From contig CANKAT010000010.1 in assembly GCA_947479815.1 (NCBI GenBank), positions 1 to 60,839 on the forward strand: a DNA stretch of 60,839 bases, written 5' to 3'. Under the pieces are notes generated by a model. It saw only the letters and a list, made by a program, of their open reading frames with translations, did no database searches and had not been told where the DNA came from. This document shows positions 5,512 to 14,887 of this stretch, piece after piece. The position numbers were made by a program, and so were the translations under genes. The stretch's first letter is position 1. Every line of letters begins with the position of its first letter. Source of the stretch: Sphingobacteriaceae bacterium (GTDB lineage: Bacteria; Bacteroidota; Bacteroidia; Sphingobacteriales; Sphingobacteriaceae).

Positions 5512-6822
5512 TTAAATAATTTCAGCTACTACAAAGGTGCTGCCACCGATAAAAATAAGGTCATTATTTCCCGCATTTTTTTTTGCTTGATCAAAGGCGG
5601 TTTGTACTGTTGGATAAAAAGAACCAGTCAGCCCAAATTTACCTGCTTCGAATTGTAGGTTGTTTGCTGGCAGAGCTCTGGGAATATTTGGCTGGCAGAA
5701 ATAATAAAATGCATTTTGAGGTAATAGGCTTAAAATTTTGGAAATATCCTTGTCTTTCACCATTCCAATAACCATATGAAGATCTTTGTGAGGGGTTAAA
5801 TTGATATTTTTCATTACCTCCCTGATCCCATCTTCATTGTGTCCGGTATCACAAATAATCAGTGGATTATAATTTAGCGAATGCCAGCGCCCCATTAAAC
5901 CAGTTAGCTTTTTTACTTGCCTTAAAGCAGACAGAATATCCTGATCATCAATTTGATAGCCCTTAACTCTTAAATGCTTTACAGCGCTTAATACGCCCGC
6001 CAGATTCTTTAATTGGTAGCTTCCAGTAAGATCTAATTCAAGACTGTCAAAACTAAAAACAGGCTTATTAATATTCGTTTTTTGTCTGATCTCTAATTTC
6101 AGTAATCCAGATGAGTTATTTTGTGTTTGAGACCTAATTATATCCCATTCATCACTTGCGAAAGTAAGCCCTGAATTCATTTCAAATGCCTTGCTGATGA
6201 ATAGATCTTCAACTTCATTTTGTCGTTGACTAATAACTACTGGCACCTTGTGTTTAATTATACCGGCTTTTTCAGCTGCGATCTCATTTAAGGAATTCCC
6301 TAAAATATTCATGTGGTCATAGCCAATATTACTGATCACGCTTAATTCTGGATGAATTACATTAGTTGAATCAAGACGGCCACCGAGCCCAACTTCGATA
6401 ATTGCGATGTCTACCTGATTTGCAGAAAAGTATTCAAATGCTAAAGCTACAGTAACCTCAAAAAATGAGGGTTCCAATTCCTCTATGTAGTGTTGATGAG
6501 CTTCTACGAATTGAATCACTTCCATTTCAGTGATCATTTCTCCGTTTATCCGGATTCTCTCTCTGAAATCACGGAGATGCGGTGAGGTGTATAAGCCCGT
6601 TTTGTACCCAGCTTCCTGAAGTATAGCTGCCAGCATATGCGACGTTGAACCCTTACCGTTGGTACCACCGACATGAACAGCTTTGAATTTTTCATGAGGG
6701 TTTTCAAGTTTTTGACAGAATTTGATCGTATTCTGTAAGCCTGGTTTGATTGCGCCCTTTCCATGGCTACTGAACACAGGAAGCCTTGAATATAGATAGT
6801 GGAGAGTTTCAGAATAGTTCAT
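5512..6822 (-). CDS. folC: Folylpolyglutamate synthase / dihydrofolate synthase
   Basis: This 436-residue cytoplasmic Mur-ligase-family enzyme adds glutamate to dihydropteroate and/or folates using ATP. The P-loop VGGTNGKGSTSHMLA lies near residues 51-65, followed by the folate-loop region GLYTSPHLRDFRERIRING and the metal-binding SNIGYDHMNILG. The length is normal for FolC. It lies downstream of the ExbBD/TonB-like operon on the same strand, with a 350-bp gap and a weak terminator between, so it is probably transcribed separately. Other folate-branch genes in the window are pabB (29.2 kb) and a class IV aminotransferase that may be pabC (41.4 kb). Confidence 0.96.
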   Translation of the reverse strand: MNYSETLHYLYSRLPVFSSHGKGAIKPGLQNTIKFCQKLENPHEKFKAVHVGGTNGKGSTSHMLAAILQEAGYKTGLYTSPHLRDFRERIRINGEMITEMEVIQFVEAHQHYIEELEPSFFEVTVALAFEYFSANQVDIAIIEVGLGGRLDSTNVIHPELSVISNIGYDHMNILGNSLNEIAAEKAGIIKHKVPVVISQRQNEVEDLFISKAFEMNSGLTFASDEWDIIRSQTQNNSSGLLKLEIRQKTNINKPVFSFDSLELDLTGSYQLKNLAGVLSAVKHLRVKGYQIDDQDILSALRQVKKLTGLMGRWHSLNYNPLIICDTGHNEDGIREVMKNINLTPHKDLHMVIGMVKDKDISKILSLLPQNAFYYFCQPNIPRALPANNLQFEAGKFGLTGSFYPTVQTAFDQAKKNAGNNDLIFIGGSTFVVAEII

Positions 6823-7173: not shown

Positions 7174-7175
7174 TT
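7150..7175 (-). terminator. Weak terminator after the TonB-like gene
   Basis: On the minus strand AACTC...GAGTT (7175-7171 with 7163-7159) forms a 5-bp stem with a 7-nt loop, followed by a run of T residues. It overlaps the tonB-like stop codon. The stem is short, so this is only plausible. Confidence 0.4.
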
Positions 7176-7995
7176 ATTTAACTTTAAAATTAAACATCAC
7201 TACCCCAATTTGAACATCAGGTGCTGATTCTAATTTGTTTAGAGAAGATCCTATAACGGCAATACGGCATTTTTCCCAGATATCTTTGTCTGATAGGGTA
7301 GTTCCTTTTACGCCAGGAATGGCATTCACCACGATACCATTTTTATCTACATATATTCTTACGGCTACTTTTCCATATTTCTGGCCATTATCCTTCGGCA
7401 CAGACAAGTTAGTGAATTTCCTGCTTTTAAGGTCTAGTGCATAACTTCCATTACCTGAGCCACCTTCTCCATAATCGGGTGAAAGTGGGTCGCCGTTAGC
7501 GCTTCCTTGATTGCCGGCAACGGTACTTGTTCCATCACCTTTTCCAAGACCATCATTCTTTTTGCCTTTATAAAGTGCATTCTGATTAACTGCAGGTTTA
7601 TTGTCTTTAGCTGGCACACTCACAGTAGGTGATTTAGCTGTGCTTTTTTCCTTAGTAACAATTTCTGGTGCATCTTCATTATTCTGAGTTGCAATGGCTT
7701 TATCTGTAACCTCCGAACTCACATCAGCTGACGTGTTATTGTCAACGATCACTTTGTCTGGTGAAGTATTATTGGCATCAGGTGAAGTTGAGGGCTCTTC
7801 AACACTCATGTAATCATCGCCCATACCGAATTCTGAGGTGCCATAATTGACAATGATTCCACCTGTACCTGTATCAGGTTCAACGCGGCTCGCAATAATG
7901 AAAAAGCTAATCACCAGAAACACAATCATAATACCAGTTGAAATGGCATATGCTTTCGGATAATTGTTCTCTTCCTGTCTGCGGTATTCTATCAT
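7174..7995 (-). CDS. TonB-family energy transducer
   Basis: This 273-residue protein has a cytoplasmic N-terminus, a single membrane helix at about 17-36, a long Asn/Ser/Asp/Gly-rich periplasmic linker (40-195) and a TonB-like C-terminal domain (about 200-273, with KYGKVAVRIYVDKNGIVVNAIPG). TonB proteins transmit ExbB/ExbD motor force to outer-membrane proteins. The linker is not the usual Pro/Lys-rich rod, and the helix lacks the SxxxH pattern of E. coli TonB, so it may be a TolA- or TonB-like relative serving one specific partner. Its ATG overlaps the exbD stop (ATGA). It is the last gene of the six-gene operon that starts at 14887. Confidence 0.88.
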   Translation of the reverse strand: MIEYRRQEENNYPKAYAISTGIMIVFLVISFFIIASRVEPDTGTGGIIVNYGTSEFGMGDDYMSVEEPSTSPDANNTSPDKVIVDNNTSADVSSEVTDKAIATQNNEDAPEIVTKEKSTAKSPTVSVPAKDNKPAVNQNALYKGKKNDGLGKGDGTSTVAGNQGSANGDPLSPDYGEGGSGNGSYALDLKSRKFTNLSVPKDNGQKYGKVAVRIYVDKNGIVVNAIPGVKGTTLSDKDIWEKCRIAVIGSSLNKLESAPDVQIGVVMFNFKVK

Positions 7996-8393
7996 TTTTT
8001 TGTTTCTGTAGCTAAAACTAGTTTTATCTTCAGTTTATTTGCAATATCTGTCAGATCTATTACATTCTCAATTGCAATGGTACGGTCGGCATATAGAATG
8101 ATGGTTAGATCAGGAGATGCCTTTTGATAAACCTCTATATTTTGAAATAGATCAGAAGCATTGACTTTTTTCTTTTCTACATAATATTCAAGATCCTTGG
8201 TAATCGAAACATTAATCGTTTTTTGTGGGATTGATTGACCTGAACTTGATCTGGGTAAGAATAGCTTAACCACATTTGGATTTGCCACAGCTGATGCCAG
8301 TAGAAAGAACAGTAGCAAAAAGAACATAATATCGTTCAATGCCGATGTATGAACTTCAACTGTTCCTCTCTTTTGTCGTTTTCTTAAATTCAT
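7992..8393 (-). CDS. exbD: ExbD/TolR-family motor protein
   Basis: The 133-residue protein has a basic N-terminus (MNLRKRQKRG), one membrane helix (about 20-40) with the essential ion-carrying Asp at residue 21 (ALNDIMFFLLLFF), and a periplasmic ExbD/TolR domain. It forms the proton-driven stator with ExbB. It overlaps exbB by 4 nt on one side and the tonB-like gene by 4 nt on the other, so the three are probably translationally coupled and made in fixed ratio. Confidence 0.95.
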   Translation of the reverse strand: MNLRKRQKRGTVEVHTSALNDIMFFLLLFFLLASAVANPNVVKLFLPRSSSGQSIPQKTINVSITKDLEYYVEKKKVNASDLFQNIEVYQKASPDLTIILYADRTIAIENVIDLTDIANKLKIKLVLATETKK

Positions 8394-9088
8394 TTGCCTG
8401 GTTCTTCTAAAAGGTCAATAAACTCAATAGCATCAGTCTCCATTTTAAGGATAATTCTGTCGACCATGATATTCAGTATATGATATAAAACATAGGCAAT
8501 AATACCAATGATCAAGCCAGTTGCCGAAGTGATCATTTTTACATAAAGTCCGCCAGAAATGGTTCCGATTTCGATAATTCCTTTAACTGAAACCTCATGA
8601 AAAATAGTAATAACCCCAATAATAGTACCCACAAAGCCAAGCATGGGCGCTATCCCAGCTATAATCCCAAGAATACTGATATTCTTCTCTAGTTTTGAAA
8701 CTTCAAGTTTTCCAACATTCTCAATTGCACCTTCAATATCTTTGATTGGTCTTCCAATGCGTAAAAGGCCTTTTTCAAGCATTCTTCCAAGCGGTGTATT
8801 GCTATTCCTGCAAATGGCTAGGGCAGAATCAAGTTTTGCAGATTTAACACTCTGCTTAACCTGCAACATCAGGTTCATTTCATCTTTTGAAGCCTTTCTA
8901 ATGGTTAAATACCTCTCTACAAATATAACTAGGCCCATGAATGCAAGTAATGCCAATGGCACCATTACCCAACCACCTTTGAAAAGGAGTTCAATAAACC
9001 TTAATTCTTCACCGGTTTGCATCGTCTGAGTGGTAGCTGCTGCGGTATCAGCAATAGGATTAAGCGTATCAATTTGAAGTAGAAACAT
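8390..9088 (-). CDS. exbB: ExbB/TolQ/MotA-family proton-channel protein
   Basis: The 232-residue inner-membrane protein has a periplasmic N-terminal segment, a first helix near 38-60 (WVMVPLALLAFMGLVIFVERY), a cytoplasmic region and two further helices in the C-terminal half (GIIAGIAPMLGFVGTIIGVI and the following hydrophobic stretch), the MotA/TolQ/ExbB channel layout. It powers the TonB-like transducer with the proton gradient. The ATG overlaps the stop of the HU/SPOR gene (TAATG), which ties expression of the motor to that protein. Confidence 0.95.
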   Translation of the reverse strand: MFLLQIDTLNPIADTAAATTQTMQTGEELRFIELLFKGGWVMVPLALLAFMGLVIFVERYLTIRKASKDEMNLMLQVKQSVKSAKLDSALAICRNSNTPLGRMLEKGLLRIGRPIKDIEGAIENVGKLEVSKLEKNISILGIIAGIAPMLGFVGTIIGVITIFHEVSVKGIIEIGTISGGLYVKMITSATGLIIGIIAYVLYHILNIMVDRIILKMETDAIEFIDLLEEPGK

Positions 9089-10137
9089 TATTTTGGATTT
9101 TTGGATGGTTTTACCCGGGCTATCCAGGCATCTTTATTTATTTTTTTGTGTATTCTGGTTAATTCTTTTTGAGCTGATTCTTCATCTAAGAACGTACCGA
9201 TACTGATTTTTAGCATTTTTCCAGGCATATTTTCAACGATCTTTGCCTGAATTCCTTTTGAGCCGATTTGTTTTATGTATACGTCGGCTTCAGATTTTAT
9301 TGAAAATGCAGCTATAATTAGCTCATAATTAACAACTTCGCTTGTATTACTTAGAACATCAGATTCATTAGCTGTTGTTAGTGCAGTATCTGTTAGTTGT
9401 TGTAGGCTATCGGATACTATTGATGCACTATCTACGGCATTTTTTAGGCTATCTGAGTTTATTTTTGTTGAATCAATTAATTCAGGTGCTGCCTGTTCAA
9501 CGGTATTCTTAGAGTGAAAAATACCGGCACTTTTATTTTTAATGAAACTATTGAAATCAGAATTGAAATAAAACAATACTGAAACTGCAATTAAAACCGC
9601 AAAAAAGCTAATAAATAGGATAATCCACGGTCGTGTTTTCTTGGTTTCTTCATATTCTTCTTCTTCTTCTTCTAGATCTTCATTAACATTATTGACAGGC
9701 ATTTCCTCATTTATTGCAAGAAGTACTTCTGTTTTTAATTCAGAAACAGGTTTTAAACCGAAAAAATGATCAATGGCTCCTAAACTAAGCGATGGTCTTA
9801 ATTTAAGTAGTCCATCTTCTTTGTAAAGTACGCCTATATGCTGTATTTCTGCCGATTCGGAACTATTAAGGTGTTCTAATATGCTTTCTGAGAATTTTTT
9901 AATGAGTTCTTCTACTGAAGAGTAACTTAGATTTTTTTCAACACTAATAAACTGAATTAGACTTAAATCGTTGGTTTCAGTCTCCTTTAAAAATATTTGG
10001 TAGCTAGGGGGATAGAATTCATTACTAGAGCTATTGAATGAACCCGCAAGCCTGATTTTCATAAAAGTGCCTAATCCAGCAACGTTTATTTCATCCTGTT
10101 CAAGTAATAATTCTCTAATGTAAAAACCTATATCCAT
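9088..10137 (-). CDS. HU-fold (CCDC81-like) / SPOR-domain membrane protein
   Basis: The 349-residue protein has an unusual layout. Residues 1-125 look like two tandem HU-CCDC81-type domains (MDIGFYIRELLLEQDEINVAGLG... and a second unit around 68-125). There follow an acidic run (EEEEEEYEE, about 156-164), one membrane helix (171-191), a Ser/Asp-rich periplasmic linker (195-265) and a C-terminal SPOR domain (about 270-345). SPOR domains bind denuded septal peptidoglycan. The HU fold suggests DNA or protein binding on the cytoplasmic side. Comparative work on the HU-CCDC81 clade has proposed chromosome-envelope tethering for such proteins. It sits inside an ExbBD/TonB operon, coupled to exbB by a TAATG overlap. 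Confidence 0.85.
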   Translation of the reverse strand: MDIGFYIRELLLEQDEINVAGLGTFMKIRLAGSFNSSSNEFYPPSYQIFLKETETNDLSLIQFISVEKNLSYSSVEELIKKFSESILEHLNSSESAEIQHIGVLYKEDGLLKLRPSLSLGAIDHFFGLKPVSELKTEVLLAINEEMPVNNVNEDLEEEEEEYEETKKTRPWIILFISFFAVLIAVSVLFYFNSDFNSFIKNKSAGIFHSKNTVEQAAPELIDSTKINSDSLKNAVDSASIVSDSLQQLTDTALTTANESDVLSNTSEVVNYELIIAAFSIKSEADVYIKQIGSKGIQAKIVENMPGKMLKISIGTFLDEESAQKELTRIHKKINKDAWIARVKPSKNPK

Positions 10138-10183
10138 TATGTGGCTAATTTAAATTTAAATTGTCAAGCTGCCAAACTAAGCC

Positions 10184-11854
10184 TTAAAATGAATAGTTCG
10201 CTCCGCCTAATAAGGTAAGTCCCATTTTAGGATAATATAAATATCTCTGATAAGACTGTCCGGTTAAATTATTAGCTCTTAAATAAACTCCAATTTTATT
10301 ATGCACCTTATATTCTGCACCTACACTAAGATCAATAAACCCTTTAAGGGTACTTGAAGAAAATCCACTTCCAGATGTATTAACCCTTGCGTAAGTTTCT
10401 CCCTGGAAAAGAAGTTCGGTATCCAGAAAAAGCTTTTGATTAACCTGAGCTCTGGCATTAGAGATTAGTCTTATCGTTGGTTTGAACCAAGCATAAGTTT
10501 GATTAGCCATATCATATTTAAAGATCTGTGCTTTGCCGCCAATGCTAAATACATCAGAAGCTTTTACATTTAATTCACCTTCAAGACCGAATATTGAACT
10601 TATGCCATTATCATAAATCACATCAAAGCGGTTAACTATAGTTTGATTGTTCACCAATAGCTGCATGTCATCAATGTTCTTATAATAGCCCATGATTTTG
10701 TATCCAAATTCTGCGCCTACATTTCCTTTAACTCCCGCTTGTACATTGATTTTTTCTAATGAGTTTTTAATTGCCAGATTTTTATTCAAAAATGGATTTT
10801 CCAGAGCCAGATCTCTTACAGAGGTTTTTAATACATCTCCATTAAGCCCTGCAAACACAACTGCATATTCAGGAATTACAGGAAGTTCTGCTGATACAGA
10901 TGGGAAAATATTCAGGCGGCTGTTTGTGCCAAATTCTTGTACAATATTTGCACCCAGTATAAATTCATAGCCTTTACCTTTTAAATTTACATAAGGGTTT
11001 GCTCTTAGTATATTGTTTCCCAAATTATAGGTAGCGTCTTTTGTTGATGTGAAATCTGCCGTGGTATTCAGTCCGACATTAAAAAGACTGATTTCCTTAT
11101 TAAAATATCCTCTCAAAAGAACTGAGCTTTCTCTTGCATCTTCAATATTACTGAATTGGTAAGCATTTATACTCGCGGCATAATTAAAAGGGGATGAATC
11201 AGAATAATTATTCATTATTTCTGCCTCGGCAGCAATAGTACTGAATCCTTGTTTACTCTTATCGATAGCTACACTCGATGCAGGAACAAATCCATAGAAA
11301 AAAGATGATCGGCGATCATAGCTTAAATTTCCTGAAATACTATAGGAATCAGCAACTGACTTTCCAAAAATGCCAAGTTCCTGATTTGAAAATTGTTGTT
11401 TTTCTAAATTGCCTTGTTGAGAAAGGTGCTTAAAATAAGCTCCTGTTTGTAGTGCTGCATCACGACCTGAATTAAAATAAGCTTCAGCCTGTGCAGTATT
11501 GAAATTTCCTGCACCCACTTTAATATAGTTGTTGGAAAGTACTGATAAACGTTCATCTGCCATTTTTTGGGCCTGAAGTTCTTTGATATTTGAATTCAGA
11601 TTGAGTTTTTTATCAATTACACTATAGCTTAGAACTGGTTTAAAGGCCTTGGCGCTATTCATGTCAGGGTTTCTGCGGATCTTAACAGCTTCAGCCAAAA
11701 CTGGCTTATATGGCCTTATAACTTCTATTTCTTCAGTAATATTTGCAGATTGTGTACCGGTGGTAGTTTCATTTTTTTTATCCTGTGACTGAGCTGTAAC
11801 AGATAAAAAAAACAAACTAACTATCAGCGTATATTTTAAAGTCGGAATATTCAT
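10184..11854 (-). CDS. Outer-membrane beta-barrel protein, TonB-receptor-like, no plug
   Basis: The 556-residue protein has a signal peptide (cleavage near SVTAQSQ, 18-24), a conserved-looking periplasmic N-terminal segment (EEIEVIRPYKPVLAEAVKI, 41-59) and then alternating strand-rich sequence to a C-terminal aromatic residue (GANYSF), typical of outer-membrane barrels. The C-terminal half resembles TonB-dependent receptors, but the length leaves no room for both a standard plug and a 22-strand barrel. The N-terminal segment could be the contact for the TonB-like protein encoded downstream. It lies 6 bp after the TPR gene and 46 bp before the HU/SPOR gene in the same operon. The substrate is unknown. 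Confidence 0.8.
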   Translation of the reverse strand: MNIPTLKYTLIVSLFFLSVTAQSQDKKNETTTGTQSANITEEIEVIRPYKPVLAEAVKIRRNPDMNSAKAFKPVLSYSVIDKKLNLNSNIKELQAQKMADERLSVLSNNYIKVGAGNFNTAQAEAYFNSGRDAALQTGAYFKHLSQQGNLEKQQFSNQELGIFGKSVADSYSISGNLSYDRRSSFFYGFVPASSVAIDKSKQGFSTIAAEAEIMNNYSDSSPFNYAASINAYQFSNIEDARESSVLLRGYFNKEISLFNVGLNTTADFTSTKDATYNLGNNILRANPYVNLKGKGYEFILGANIVQEFGTNSRLNIFPSVSAELPVIPEYAVVFAGLNGDVLKTSVRDLALENPFLNKNLAIKNSLEKINVQAGVKGNVGAEFGYKIMGYYKNIDDMQLLVNNQTIVNRFDVIYDNGISSIFGLEGELNVKASDVFSIGGKAQIFKYDMANQTYAWFKPTIRLISNARAQVNQKLFLDTELLFQGETYARVNTSGSGFSSSTLKGFIDLSVGAEYKVHNKIGVYLRANNLTGQSYQRYLYYPKMGLTLLGGANYSF

Positions 11855-11860
11855 TATCTA

Positions 11861-14800
11861 TTATTTTTTTTTCAGTTTTTCCAATTTTTCTTTGGCCAGC
11901 GTAAGGATGTCATCATCTTTATTCTCGTAATTTTCAATAATACTCTGTAGCGTGCTTTTTGCCTGGAAAGTATCTTTTAAGCCAATGTAGTTGTCGGCAA
12001 TCAAAATATAAGTTTTTGCTACCCAATAATCATGAGAAGGCATTTTATTAGTTAGGTCAAATGCTGAAGAAAGAGATGTTTTGTATTCACCTCTCAGATA
12101 TAAAATATTAGCCATATTATATTTTGCTTCGGCACCTGTTACGGTTTGTGTTTTTTCTGCAACTTCAGTGAAGTCTTTAACTGCTTGAATAGTATCCCCA
12201 ATAATCAGATTAGCTTTTCCTGAATAAAGTCCTGCTCTGAACAGGTCTTCTTCTGAAGATTTATTAGACTCTTTTATGAATTTCACATACTGAAGTGTTT
12301 CATCCGGTAAATTCATACTGGAATAAGCCTCCATCAAATTATTCACAGCAAAACTATAATTAGCTTTGTATTCAGAGGTTAGTTCAAGTTTTTTAAGATG
12401 GACAATCGCCTCGTTGTATTTTTTTTGAGCAAGGTAGATCTTTGCAATGCTGATCAGGGCACGTTCTGTATAATCACTAGTCCAGTCATTAAGAATAAAC
12501 TCATAATCCGGAATTGCTTCATTTGGCCTTTTAAGTTTAACCAGACTTTCAGCCCTGATAAAGCGGGCATGTTTGTCATGTACAGCTTTTGGAAATTTAT
12601 CAAAGTAAGCATTTACTGACTCAAATGTTCCCTGATAGTCTGCGGTAAGAAAACGATTGTTTGCTGCCTGAAAAGTTATATTATCCTGTTCATAAGTACT
12701 CAGGTTTCCAATGCTTGTGGTATTCGCATAATCCAGAAAACCGGTGGCATCCGATTTTTGCAGGTAGATATTTTTAATGGATTCCAATGCCAGTTTTGCT
12801 TCATCAGTAGTAGTGTATTCACTAACTACACGCTTAAATGTCACTATTGCCGCTTCTTCCTGATCCTGGTTAAGTTCTACCAAGCCAATTGTAATTAATG
12901 CACGCGGTACATAGCTACTTCTTGGATATTTTTGTATGAGTGCACTTAAATCTGTTTTTGCAATTTCAAAATCACCCTTAATAAAATAAGTATAGGGGAT
13001 CTCGAAACTTGCATCATCCGAATAGTTTGATTTTGGAAACTGTCTTAATAAGGATTGATGAGTTGCAATTTTTAAGTCATTCTGCCCCTGCAAGCCTTGA
13101 ATCATTCCTCTTTGAAATAATGCATAATCTTCGCTTGAGGTTTTTGATGCAATTATTCGGTTATAGTAGACTAGTGCTTCCTCATAATTTTTTAAAACGA
13201 AATATGAATCTGCTAATCTAAGTATAGCATCATTGATGGTATTCGAGTCTTTTTCATTTCCACGAAGGAAACGCGTGAAGTAAGTAGCAGCTTTTCTATA
13301 ACTCTCATGTTCAAATGCAGCGTAGGCCAATGCATAATGAGCAAAATTATATACTTCAGTTTTACGTGAAGCCGGCAGATTCATGAATTTTTCAAAATTA
13401 TCTACCGATTCTCCAAATTTTCTAACCTCATACATCGCTTCTGCCAGCCAATAAGTTGATAGTGAATGAATTTCATCGTCTTCAACGTATTTATTGGATC
13501 GCATAAACATAGAAATGCCATTTTGGAAAGCACGCTCATTATAATATTCTAGACCTCTGTAAAAAGTAACTTTCTGATAGACCGCGTTTGCTTCACGATT
13601 TCTATTTGGGATACTTTCAAGGATATCGATGGCATCTTTATAGTTTTTTGTAGTCAGCAAGATCTCTCCCAATAAAGTTTTTGCTGAATCCAATTTTACT
13701 GAGTTTGGATAGGTTTTTATAAATTGTTGAGTAGCATCTAGCGCTACCTGATGGAATTCAAGTTCATAAGATAGTTTAGCGTAATTAAAAAGACCTTCCT
13801 CTTGTAACTGTTTGTCGAATGTTAATTTAGAAGCTTTAAAAAATGCACTTCTGGCTGCTTGTTTAGTATTGGTTTTCAGAAATGATTCACCTAAAGCAAT
13901 CATTCCACTCTGAAAATATTCATCTGCAGTTTCTAGCTTTTCAAGCTCCAAAATTGCTTTTTTATAATCTTTTAGCTTAAATGCAGTATAGCCGATCTGA
14001 TAATTATCCTGATTGTTCTGCGTTTTACCCTGATCTTTTTGCTGAAAATTTTGAAAATAAACTCCTGCATTGGTGTAATCTGATTTTGCAAAGTAGGATG
14101 CCCCAACAATTCGAAACATTTCTGTTTCATAAAGCTGTTTTGTTGACTTGAGTATAGGAATGGCATAACTTAACACATCATCATACCGATTATCTAGGAA
14201 ATATAGCGCAGAAATATAATACGGATAACTATTTTCATACAAGCCTGATCCTTTCAATCTCTCAAATTCTAACAGTGCTTTTTTATAGTCCTTTTGAAGG
14301 TAGCTGATGTAAGCAAAATAATAAATAGATTGTTCATTATAAATGCTTTTTTGATCTTTCAGCTCAGCGAAGAGGGCTTTTGCCTGATCGTATTCTTTGA
14401 TTTCAAAATGGGAGTAGGCTAGTTTATATCGATATTCATACGATTCTTTGCCGGATAAACCAGTTCCTTCTAATTTTTTCAACCATTCAATCACCTTTGG
14501 ATAATTCTTCAAAGTAAAGTAGGAGCGTCCAAGCTGATAAAATGCAAGTTTGGTAAAGTTGTTTGCAGGATTGGCACTAATAAAGCTTTGAAATAAGGAT
14601 TCCGCATCGCTATTCCCAAGTTCTAATGCACACAATGCGATATAATATCTGGTATTTTCTTTCAATAAGCTGATCTCAGGATTGATTTCTGCTTTTACGT
14701 TTGATTTTTGATCATTCTTTAGAACGCGGTTAAATTGATTGGCGGCCGCCGCATATTTTCCTTTTTCTAGTAATTCAATTCCGCTTTTATAGTCCTGGTT

Positions 14801-14887
14801 TAAATTAAACCATGCCGAGTTTTGAGCTAGCGCAGGAATTGTAAGAAATGCAAGAATTAATGTGAAGATTGTGTAATTTCTGAACAT
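11861..14887 (-). CDS. Large periplasmic tetratricopeptide-repeat protein
   Basis: I take the ATG at 14887 as start (1008 residues), rather than an upstream TTG, because it places a signal peptide (MFRNYTIFTLILAFLTIPALAQ) at the N-terminus. The rest is almost entirely TPR-type helical repeats with BamD/YbgF(CpoB)-like spacing, for example the repeated A-x-x-x-F-x-x-x-L-K pattern from residue 30 to the end. No enzyme motif is visible. It should be a soluble periplasmic or outer-membrane-associated scaffold. It is the first gene of the operon that goes on to the barrel, HU/SPOR, ExbB, ExbD and TonB-like genes. A CpoB-like role coupling the motor to wall or outer-membrane work is inference. Confidence 0.85.
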   Translation of the reverse strand: MFRNYTIFTLILAFLTIPALAQNSAWFNLNQDYKSGIELLEKGKYAAAANQFNRVLKNDQKSNVKAEINPEISLLKENTRYYIALCALELGNSDAESLFQSFISANPANNFTKLAFYQLGRSYFTLKNYPKVIEWLKKLEGTGLSGKESYEYRYKLAYSHFEIKEYDQAKALFAELKDQKSIYNEQSIYYFAYISYLQKDYKKALLEFERLKGSGLYENSYPYYISALYFLDNRYDDVLSYAIPILKSTKQLYETEMFRIVGASYFAKSDYTNAGVYFQNFQQKDQGKTQNNQDNYQIGYTAFKLKDYKKAILELEKLETADEYFQSGMIALGESFLKTNTKQAARSAFFKASKLTFDKQLQEEGLFNYAKLSYELEFHQVALDATQQFIKTYPNSVKLDSAKTLLGEILLTTKNYKDAIDILESIPNRNREANAVYQKVTFYRGLEYYNERAFQNGISMFMRSNKYVEDDEIHSLSTYWLAEAMYEVRKFGESVDNFEKFMNLPASRKTEVYNFAHYALAYAAFEHESYRKAATYFTRFLRGNEKDSNTINDAILRLADSYFVLKNYEEALVYYNRIIASKTSSEDYALFQRGMIQGLQGQNDLKIATHQSLLRQFPKSNYSDDASFEIPYTYFIKGDFEIAKTDLSALIQKYPRSSYVPRALITIGLVELNQDQEEAAIVTFKRVVSEYTTTDEAKLALESIKNIYLQKSDATGFLDYANTTSIGNLSTYEQDNITFQAANNRFLTADYQGTFESVNAYFDKFPKAVHDKHARFIRAESLVKLKRPNEAIPDYEFILNDWTSDYTERALISIAKIYLAQKKYNEAIVHLKKLELTSEYKANYSFAVNNLMEAYSSMNLPDETLQYVKFIKESNKSSEEDLFRAGLYSGKANLIIGDTIQAVKDFTEVAEKTQTVTGAEAKYNMANILYLRGEYKTSLSSAFDLTNKMPSHDYWVAKTYILIADNYIGLKDTFQAKSTLQSIIENYENKDDDILTLAKEKLEKLKKK

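Follow-up and report, generated by a model that had tools for sequence, protein, structure and literature searches.

The question raised by this locus is whether six adjoining genes of a Sphingobacteriaceae bacterium (contig CANKAT010000010.1 of assembly GCA_947479815.1; the whole stretch of 60,839 nucleotides analysed here is called the window) encode one energised envelope machine which resembles Tol-Pal-CpoB and is built from other parts, as the initial annotation had proposed. It was found that a motor, a TonB-like transducer, a barrel with a TonB-box-like segment and no recognised plug, a CpoB-like tetratricopeptide repeat (TPR) protein and a SPOR protein are linked by gene order. That the six genes form a single trans-envelope machine driven by protons, which is Tol-Pal-like in action though made of other parts and which is ancestral for much of Bacteroidota, is a reading to which we give about an even chance. 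The searches covered genomes of the phylum together with control genomes, where the class and phylum are those which we take to be Bacteroidia and Bacteroidota; adjacency counts within the class were made by eye, and all counts ignore relatedness.

Gene order in the window, the class and the phylum

All six genes lie on the minus strand, and in gene order they encode the TPR protein (11861-14887, 1008 aa from ATG, although the mechanically called open reading frame begins 9 nt earlier, at TTG), the barrel (10184-11854, 556 aa), a protein with HU-like and SPOR domains (HU/SPOR protein, 9088-10137, 349 aa), an ExbB/TolQ-type motor subunit (8390-9088, 232 aa), an ExbD/TolR-type motor subunit (7992-8393, 133 aa) and a TonB-like force transducer (7174-7995, 273 aa). 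The spacings from the TPR gene to the TonB-like gene are +6, +46, -1, -4 and -4 nt, exactly as first described. Order and strand of the six genes are unchanged in all 20 same-family regions fetched, which come from 20 of the 61 genomes of the order, and the HU/SPOR protein is present in 61/61 of the latter; since the order is kept in this way, the grouping is not a matter of chance.

Outside the class, a barrel profile based on the family gave weak, partial matches only. The 59 genomes with such matches were fetched (62 regions), and in 36 of them the barrel was accompanied by at least two partners. An early reading of the other-class matches as cross-hits to TonB-dependent receptors was dropped because the barrel is clustered in these 36 of 59 genomes, while the matches in family f15 and those of about 640 aa in f14 are still read as cross-hits and not as true barrels. 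At 1e-3 a broader barrel profile matched 143 of 148 genomes, a figure which takes in cross-hits, and near-full-length matches (5.2e-37 or better, counted by eye) were obtained in 108, namely 37/37 within the class and 71/111 outside it. At least two partner genes stand beside the barrel in 71/71 of these outside-class genomes (70 by script, and by inspection G153, which a size filter had dropped from script scoring). The 70 scored genomes span 19 families, to which G153 adds f29; five or six of the genes are found in 53 and all six in 10. The idea of a Bacteroidota system with conserved gene order is thus borne out both by the 20 family regions and by the 71 genomes of other classes. In families f19 and f21, FtsK was found in 17 of 22 regions, on the same strand and upstream of the barrel in the 16 displayed, with its domains shown for two loci. 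The ftsK gene precedes the barrel in L130, L134 and 15 further loci of these families, and in L130 a gene of the LPG_synthase_TM type intervenes.

Within its own class the operon has mostly come apart into a TPR-barrel pair and an ExbB-ExbD-TonB block, and the pieces are re-joined in several ways. Among 119 own-class genomes, profile matches were found for the barrel in 108, HU/SPOR in 114, ExbB in 119 and the TonB-like protein in 109, where it should be considered that the profiles miss divergent members (e.g., that of the TonB-like protein missed G223, although the gene is present). Among 40 class regions outside the family, TPR gene and barrel gene are neighbours in 36, 34 by script and two (L058, L068) added by hand, since the called barrel start there runs into the TPR gene. 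In the 30 ExbB loci read (four from the own family) ExbD adjoins in every case, and a recognised TonB-like gene in 26. Barrel, HU/SPOR and ExbB stand together in 12 of the 108 barrel-bearing class genomes (own family, f8, f9, f52, f62 and f74), and barrel with HU/SPOR but without ExbB in 10 more; HU/SPOR is joined to ExbB without the barrel in four (G229, G259, G261, G284), and to the TonB-like gene without ExbB in another four (G246, G277, G296, G300). The TonB-like match is absent in 5/11 barrel-less versus 5/108 barrel-bearing genomes (Fisher 5e-4). Two genomes of f63 (G232 and G262) keep HU/SPOR without barrel and TonB-like matches; their ExbB matches are weak (only about 1e-31), are read as the Ton paralogue, and the case is possibly one of natural loss.

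The six proteins and their neighbours

The two motor subunits match the Ton-type families above cut-off (MotA_ExbB PF01618, 2.6e-21; ExbD PF02472, 1.3e-22). Typing gave no finer assignment: tolQ was the best NCBIfam model for all ten ExbB proteins tried, including the ExbB of the Ton set of this genome, with the window ExbB below its cut-off, the ExbD model matches were mixed, and a tree of ExbB with E. coli TolQ and ExbB gave no resolution. Besides the operon, the genome has a single further ExbB set, which includes two ExbD genes and a TonB of canonical C-terminus; the motor and TonB-like protein of the operon are a set of their own, separate from the general Ton set, a point in favour of the original proposal.

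The labels of the TonB-like protein and of the barrel rest on relatives, because their own matches are weak or absent. Domain scans of the window TonB-like protein gave no meaningful match, it lies outside the three TonB_C matches of the genome, and TonB_C was matched at E up to 0.1, i.e., weakly, in 10 of 18 family members. The protein contains a transmembrane helix (minus strand, 7891-7950, approx. aa 16-35), a juxtamembrane motif GGIIVNYGT (minus strand, 7837-7863, aa 45-53) and a divergent C-terminal domain of the TonB_C type (minus strand, 7177-7440, aa 186-273). Against the profile of this domain the C-terminus of E. coli TonB scored 10.2 bits, a value reached by 0/1000 shuffles, and TolA scored 3.1 bits, with 9/1000 shuffles as high, so by shuffles the domain appears closer to TonB than to TolA. 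Several outside-class members show, by eye, the more usual TonB_C pattern. A GI-x-NFGT-type juxtamembrane motif is seen in 19 of the 27 non-family class rows printed (three genomes appear twice). The transmembrane histidine of other families, absent from the window protein, is present in 17 of the same 27 rows and in 27 of 57 outside-class genomes, and is missing from every own-family protein read; two proteins of f8 (L047, L055) seemingly have asparagine in its place, as judged by eye.

The barrel, which ends in F, is an outer-membrane beta-barrel judging by its relatives. For the window protein, the Pfam scan was without match and one weak NCBIfam match was returned (TonB_dep_CU, 31 bits with a cut-off of 700), while the barrel-family profiles match the C-terminal barrel of ferric enterobactin receptors (3.5e-5). 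The plug family was matched in none of the 18 and 22 barrel members scanned (three shared). Near the N-terminus, the segment EEIEVIRPYKP (minus strand, 11702-11734, aa 41-51) resembles the consensus familiar from TonB boxes. A box-like segment follows the signal peptide in many families, as EEIEVVRPYKP in part of the own family and as EEIVVT, LPEFVITG or PQDIEIR elsewhere, with the LPEFVITG type in several other families, and lies by eye some 45-60 residues from the barrel.

In the TPR protein (TPR_6, 3.1e-31) a signal peptide was recognised by eye (...ALAQ). It scores 188 bits against TIGR02795 tol_pal_ybgF (cut-off 90.1) and also passes the cut-off of the BamD/YfiO model. Its only PDB matches below 1e-5 are YbgF 2xev and CpoB 6g5s, and pairwise blastp with E. 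coli CpoB gave 9.5e-9; a CpoB-like TPR protein of the Tol-Pal kind is thus present, with the likeness confined to the TPR repeats. Of the 40 class regions, 12 contain an FtsE-like gene; in eight of them, from several families, this gene for an FtsE-like ABC ATPase stands right next to the TPR gene and diverges from it (L048, L052, L060, L064, L067, L071, L074 and L079). In five loci of families f8 and f9 (L046, L047, L054, L055, L058), the TPR gene is preceded by a holA-like gene (DNA polymerase III delta).

The HU/SPOR protein carries two domains of the paired HU-CCDC81 kind, the first above its cut-off (minus strand, 9994-10125, aa 5-48; HU-CCDC81_bac_1 PF18174, 27 bits, cut-off 26) and the second below it (minus strand, 9817-9960, aa 60-107; HU-CCDC81_bac_2 PF18175, 28.5 bits, cut-off 35), one transmembrane stretch by eye and a SPOR domain (minus strand, 9121-9330, aa 270-339; PF05036, 27.7 bits, cut-off 21). 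The family profile matches IHF alpha/HU at 6e-5 and weaker, and the match spans about the first 55-60 residues of HU, so that DNA binding by the HU-like domains is no more than a possibility. It also matches the SPOR domains of a sporulation amidase (1x60, 1.8e-8) and of FtsN (1uta, 3.7e-5). HU-CCDC81 domains were reportedly the subject of work in 2017.

As for the surroundings, the operon in the window is preceded by PyrR-PyrB and followed by FolC (5512-6822, minus strand), and its neighbours are pyrimidine, folate and ribosomal genes. FolC is a frequent neighbour which is not claimed as a machine part: it is present in 20/20 same-family regions (no more than 500 bases from the TonB-like gene in 19) and inside the 1.5-kb flank in 10 of the 30 ExbB loci read. 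It follows the ExbB-ExbD-TonB-like block in several class families, with no evident functional reason. A contig search with a single protein returned two near relatives, and the genome is close to a metagenome-assembled genome of Pedobacter schmidteae (identity of 86% for the best HU/SPOR segment and 94% for the barrel). Scans for promoters (43 sites versus 31.9, sd 6.1, in shuffles) and terminators (6 versus 5.8 in shuffles) were not used as evidence.

A possible division machine and its competitors

To hypothesize, ExbB and ExbD, a motor by homology, would drive the TonB-like protein, whose TonB_C-type domain would cross the periplasm and pull on the N-terminal TonB-box-like segment of the plugless barrel. 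The HU/SPOR protein would sit in the inner membrane with its HU-like domains inside and SPOR outside, and would place the complex at septal peptidoglycan free of stem peptides, as SPOR domains do elsewhere, perhaps near the nucleoid. The TPR solenoid may act as an outsized CpoB and bind either the barrel or enzymes of the wall. Cycling of such a machine would keep the outer membrane attached to the dividing wall and folding in with it. The operon may accordingly act in division, and a link to division is likely in view of the SPOR domain, FtsK in f19 and f21 and the FtsE-like neighbours in the class. The initial annotation is partly supported in all: its part-for-part replacement of Tol-Pal components, and a role in division or outer-membrane upkeep, are conjectural.

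A further step is more tentative, and our confidence in it is well short of even: besides Ton and Tol-Pal, Bacteroidota could have inherited from their ancestor a third major trans-envelope system powered by protons, which joins the nucleoid (through HU) and the septal wall (through SPOR) to the energised barrel without plug and coordinates outer-membrane constriction with chromosome segregation. If true, this would explain how Bacteroidota members without TolB divide. TolB_N was found in 0 of 21 genomes (this one and 20 relatives), and the OmpA-domain scan for Pal-type proteins gave no match on any operon protein. The available part of PMC12204202 (2025) states that tol-pal loci are lacking in Bacteroidetes and proposes PorE; the operon is not mentioned in that part, and a literature search limited to open-licence papers yielded no recognised description of it. 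The operon is a concrete and testable candidate for the missing Tol-Pal which recurs in many families: it brings a motor of its own, a target in the outer membrane dedicated to it and an arm for binding the wall, and it offers a role for a barrel which Pfam families recognise poorly and which is matched in 108/119 class genomes.

Several observations weigh against a single machine of this kind. Near-full-length barrels were not found in 40 of the 111 outside-class genomes (by eye, 30 of f15, four of f26, three of f10, two of f13 and one of f17), and in f19 and f21 the region upstream of the barrel contained no recognised TPR gene. In the own class the barrel is apart from HU/SPOR in 86 of 108 genomes with barrel (by eye), so the scattering in relatives which the initial annotation named as telling against it is half realised, while the TPR-barrel pair, the ExbB-ExbD-TonB block and the other-class clusters persist. 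The co-absence count of barrel and TonB-like protein includes misses, as G223 and perhaps G281 carry the TonB-like gene. For the TonB-like domain, hhalign against TonB or TolA was not significant and the PDB matches mix TonB with unrelated proteins; the best PDB match of the whole-protein profile was TolA (6.5e-4), over a low-complexity span. AlphaFold2 gave no usable model of the barrel or of the TonB-like protein: with alignments of two and three sequences, the mean pLDDT (predicted local distance difference test) was 26.7 and 30.6. The HU families were each matched in 16 of 21 members and SPOR in 11 of 21, which is partial, and for the seven FtsE-like genes scanned FtsE was the best model in all, below its curated cut-off. 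A control Bacteroides genome does match TolB_N in the same search. Finally, five OmpA-domain proteins occur elsewhere in the genome, including a Pal-like lipoprotein of 196 aa (G000:C89; L119 1477-2067) and a PorE-like protein. Because these last two proteins exist, SPOR need not replace Pal. The gene adjoining that of the Pal-like lipoprotein resembles a sigma factor by eye.

Among the alternatives, the strongest is an energised outer-membrane biogenesis or export device, in which the plugless barrel would be opened or reset by the TonB-like motor so that some envelope component is moved or inserted, the TPR protein serves as periplasmic chaperone and division is only the place of greatest need. 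We regard this as possible but rather doubtful. It would account for the barrel and TPR protein being the tightest pair, for the TPR scores against both BamD/YfiO and tol_pal_ybgF models and for the LPG_synthase_TM-type gene in L130; however, it is hard to see what the SPOR and HU domains would do in export, and no gene for a substrate was seen next to the operon, although no search was aimed at one.

It is unlikely that PorE does the Tol-Pal job while the operon motor drives PorE, with barrel and TPR protein as accessories. In the part of PMC12204202 at hand, CpoB, TolB and Pal-like domains are described as fused in PorE, and a TolA/TonB-like protein, with the motor unnamed, is suggested as the source of force, which together with the PorE-like protein of this genome speaks for such a division of labour. 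Yet the PorE-like gene lies on another contig (C25; PorE was not searched for in other loci), and outside the class the recurrent neighbour of the motor is the barrel. Mere co-transcription of separate functions is very improbable: although the modules are apart in most own-class genomes, the same ones are found side by side in many families, in varying combinations, and some 0.02 barrel-HU/SPOR neighbours would be expected where 22 were seen in 108 genomes (3000 genes per genome assumed).

A nutrient receptor of the usual TonB-dependent kind, supplied with a Ton set of its own, was considered and rejected as highly improbable. The C-terminal likeness of the barrel to siderophore receptor barrels and its TonB-box-like segment would suit such a role, but no plug family was matched, some 45-60 residues by eye separate box and barrel, the barrel often travels with a TPR partner, it is widespread in the class, and its neighbours serve pyrimidine, folate and ribosomal functions; the receptor interpretation that could have overturned the initial annotation was thus not borne out. 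A part in type IX secretion or gliding, which are common throughout the class (SprA in 115/119 genomes), was likewise rejected as scarcely credible, since the barrel match is kept in 4/4 SprA-negative genomes (G001, a single contig with the whole operon, G227, G257 and G248, where the lack may be an assembly gap).

Comparison with known systems

As neither TolB nor a Pal of the cluster was found, and no plug was matched, the operon of the preferred single-machine reading counts as a member of neither Tol-Pal nor Ton and is placed as a variant of the proton-driven Ton/Tol kind. With Tol-Pal-CpoB it shares a second ExbB/ExbD-type motor beside Ton, a TonB/TolA-like transducer, a periplasmic TPR protein most like CpoB, a wall-contact domain and a likely division link. 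It differs in having an integral barrel in place of TolB and of a Pal in the cluster, HU-like domains, a TPR protein of about 1000 aa and a C-terminal transducer domain which, by shuffles, is nearer to TonB than to TolA. The Ton system has the same motor families and a TonB_C-type domain, and its receptor barrels are distantly related to the barrel with its TonB-box-like segment; the operon, in contrast, shows no plug match, clusters its barrel with TPR and HU/SPOR genes, and is separate from the general Ton set of the genome.

FtsN and DamX, which are septal SPOR proteins, are likewise membrane proteins with a C-terminal SPOR domain, but the operon protein has N-terminal domains of the HU-CCDC81 type and shares its operon with a proton motor. 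PorE, in the available part of PMC12204202, is likewise a proposed answer to the missing Tol-Pal of Bacteroidetes, but it is a single lipoprotein without motor or barrel and is encoded on another contig here. GldL-GldM of type IX secretion, in the part of PMC8986121 available, is also a proton-driven trans-envelope motor of the same phylum; it consists of other proteins, and the barrel of the operon persists in genomes without SprA.

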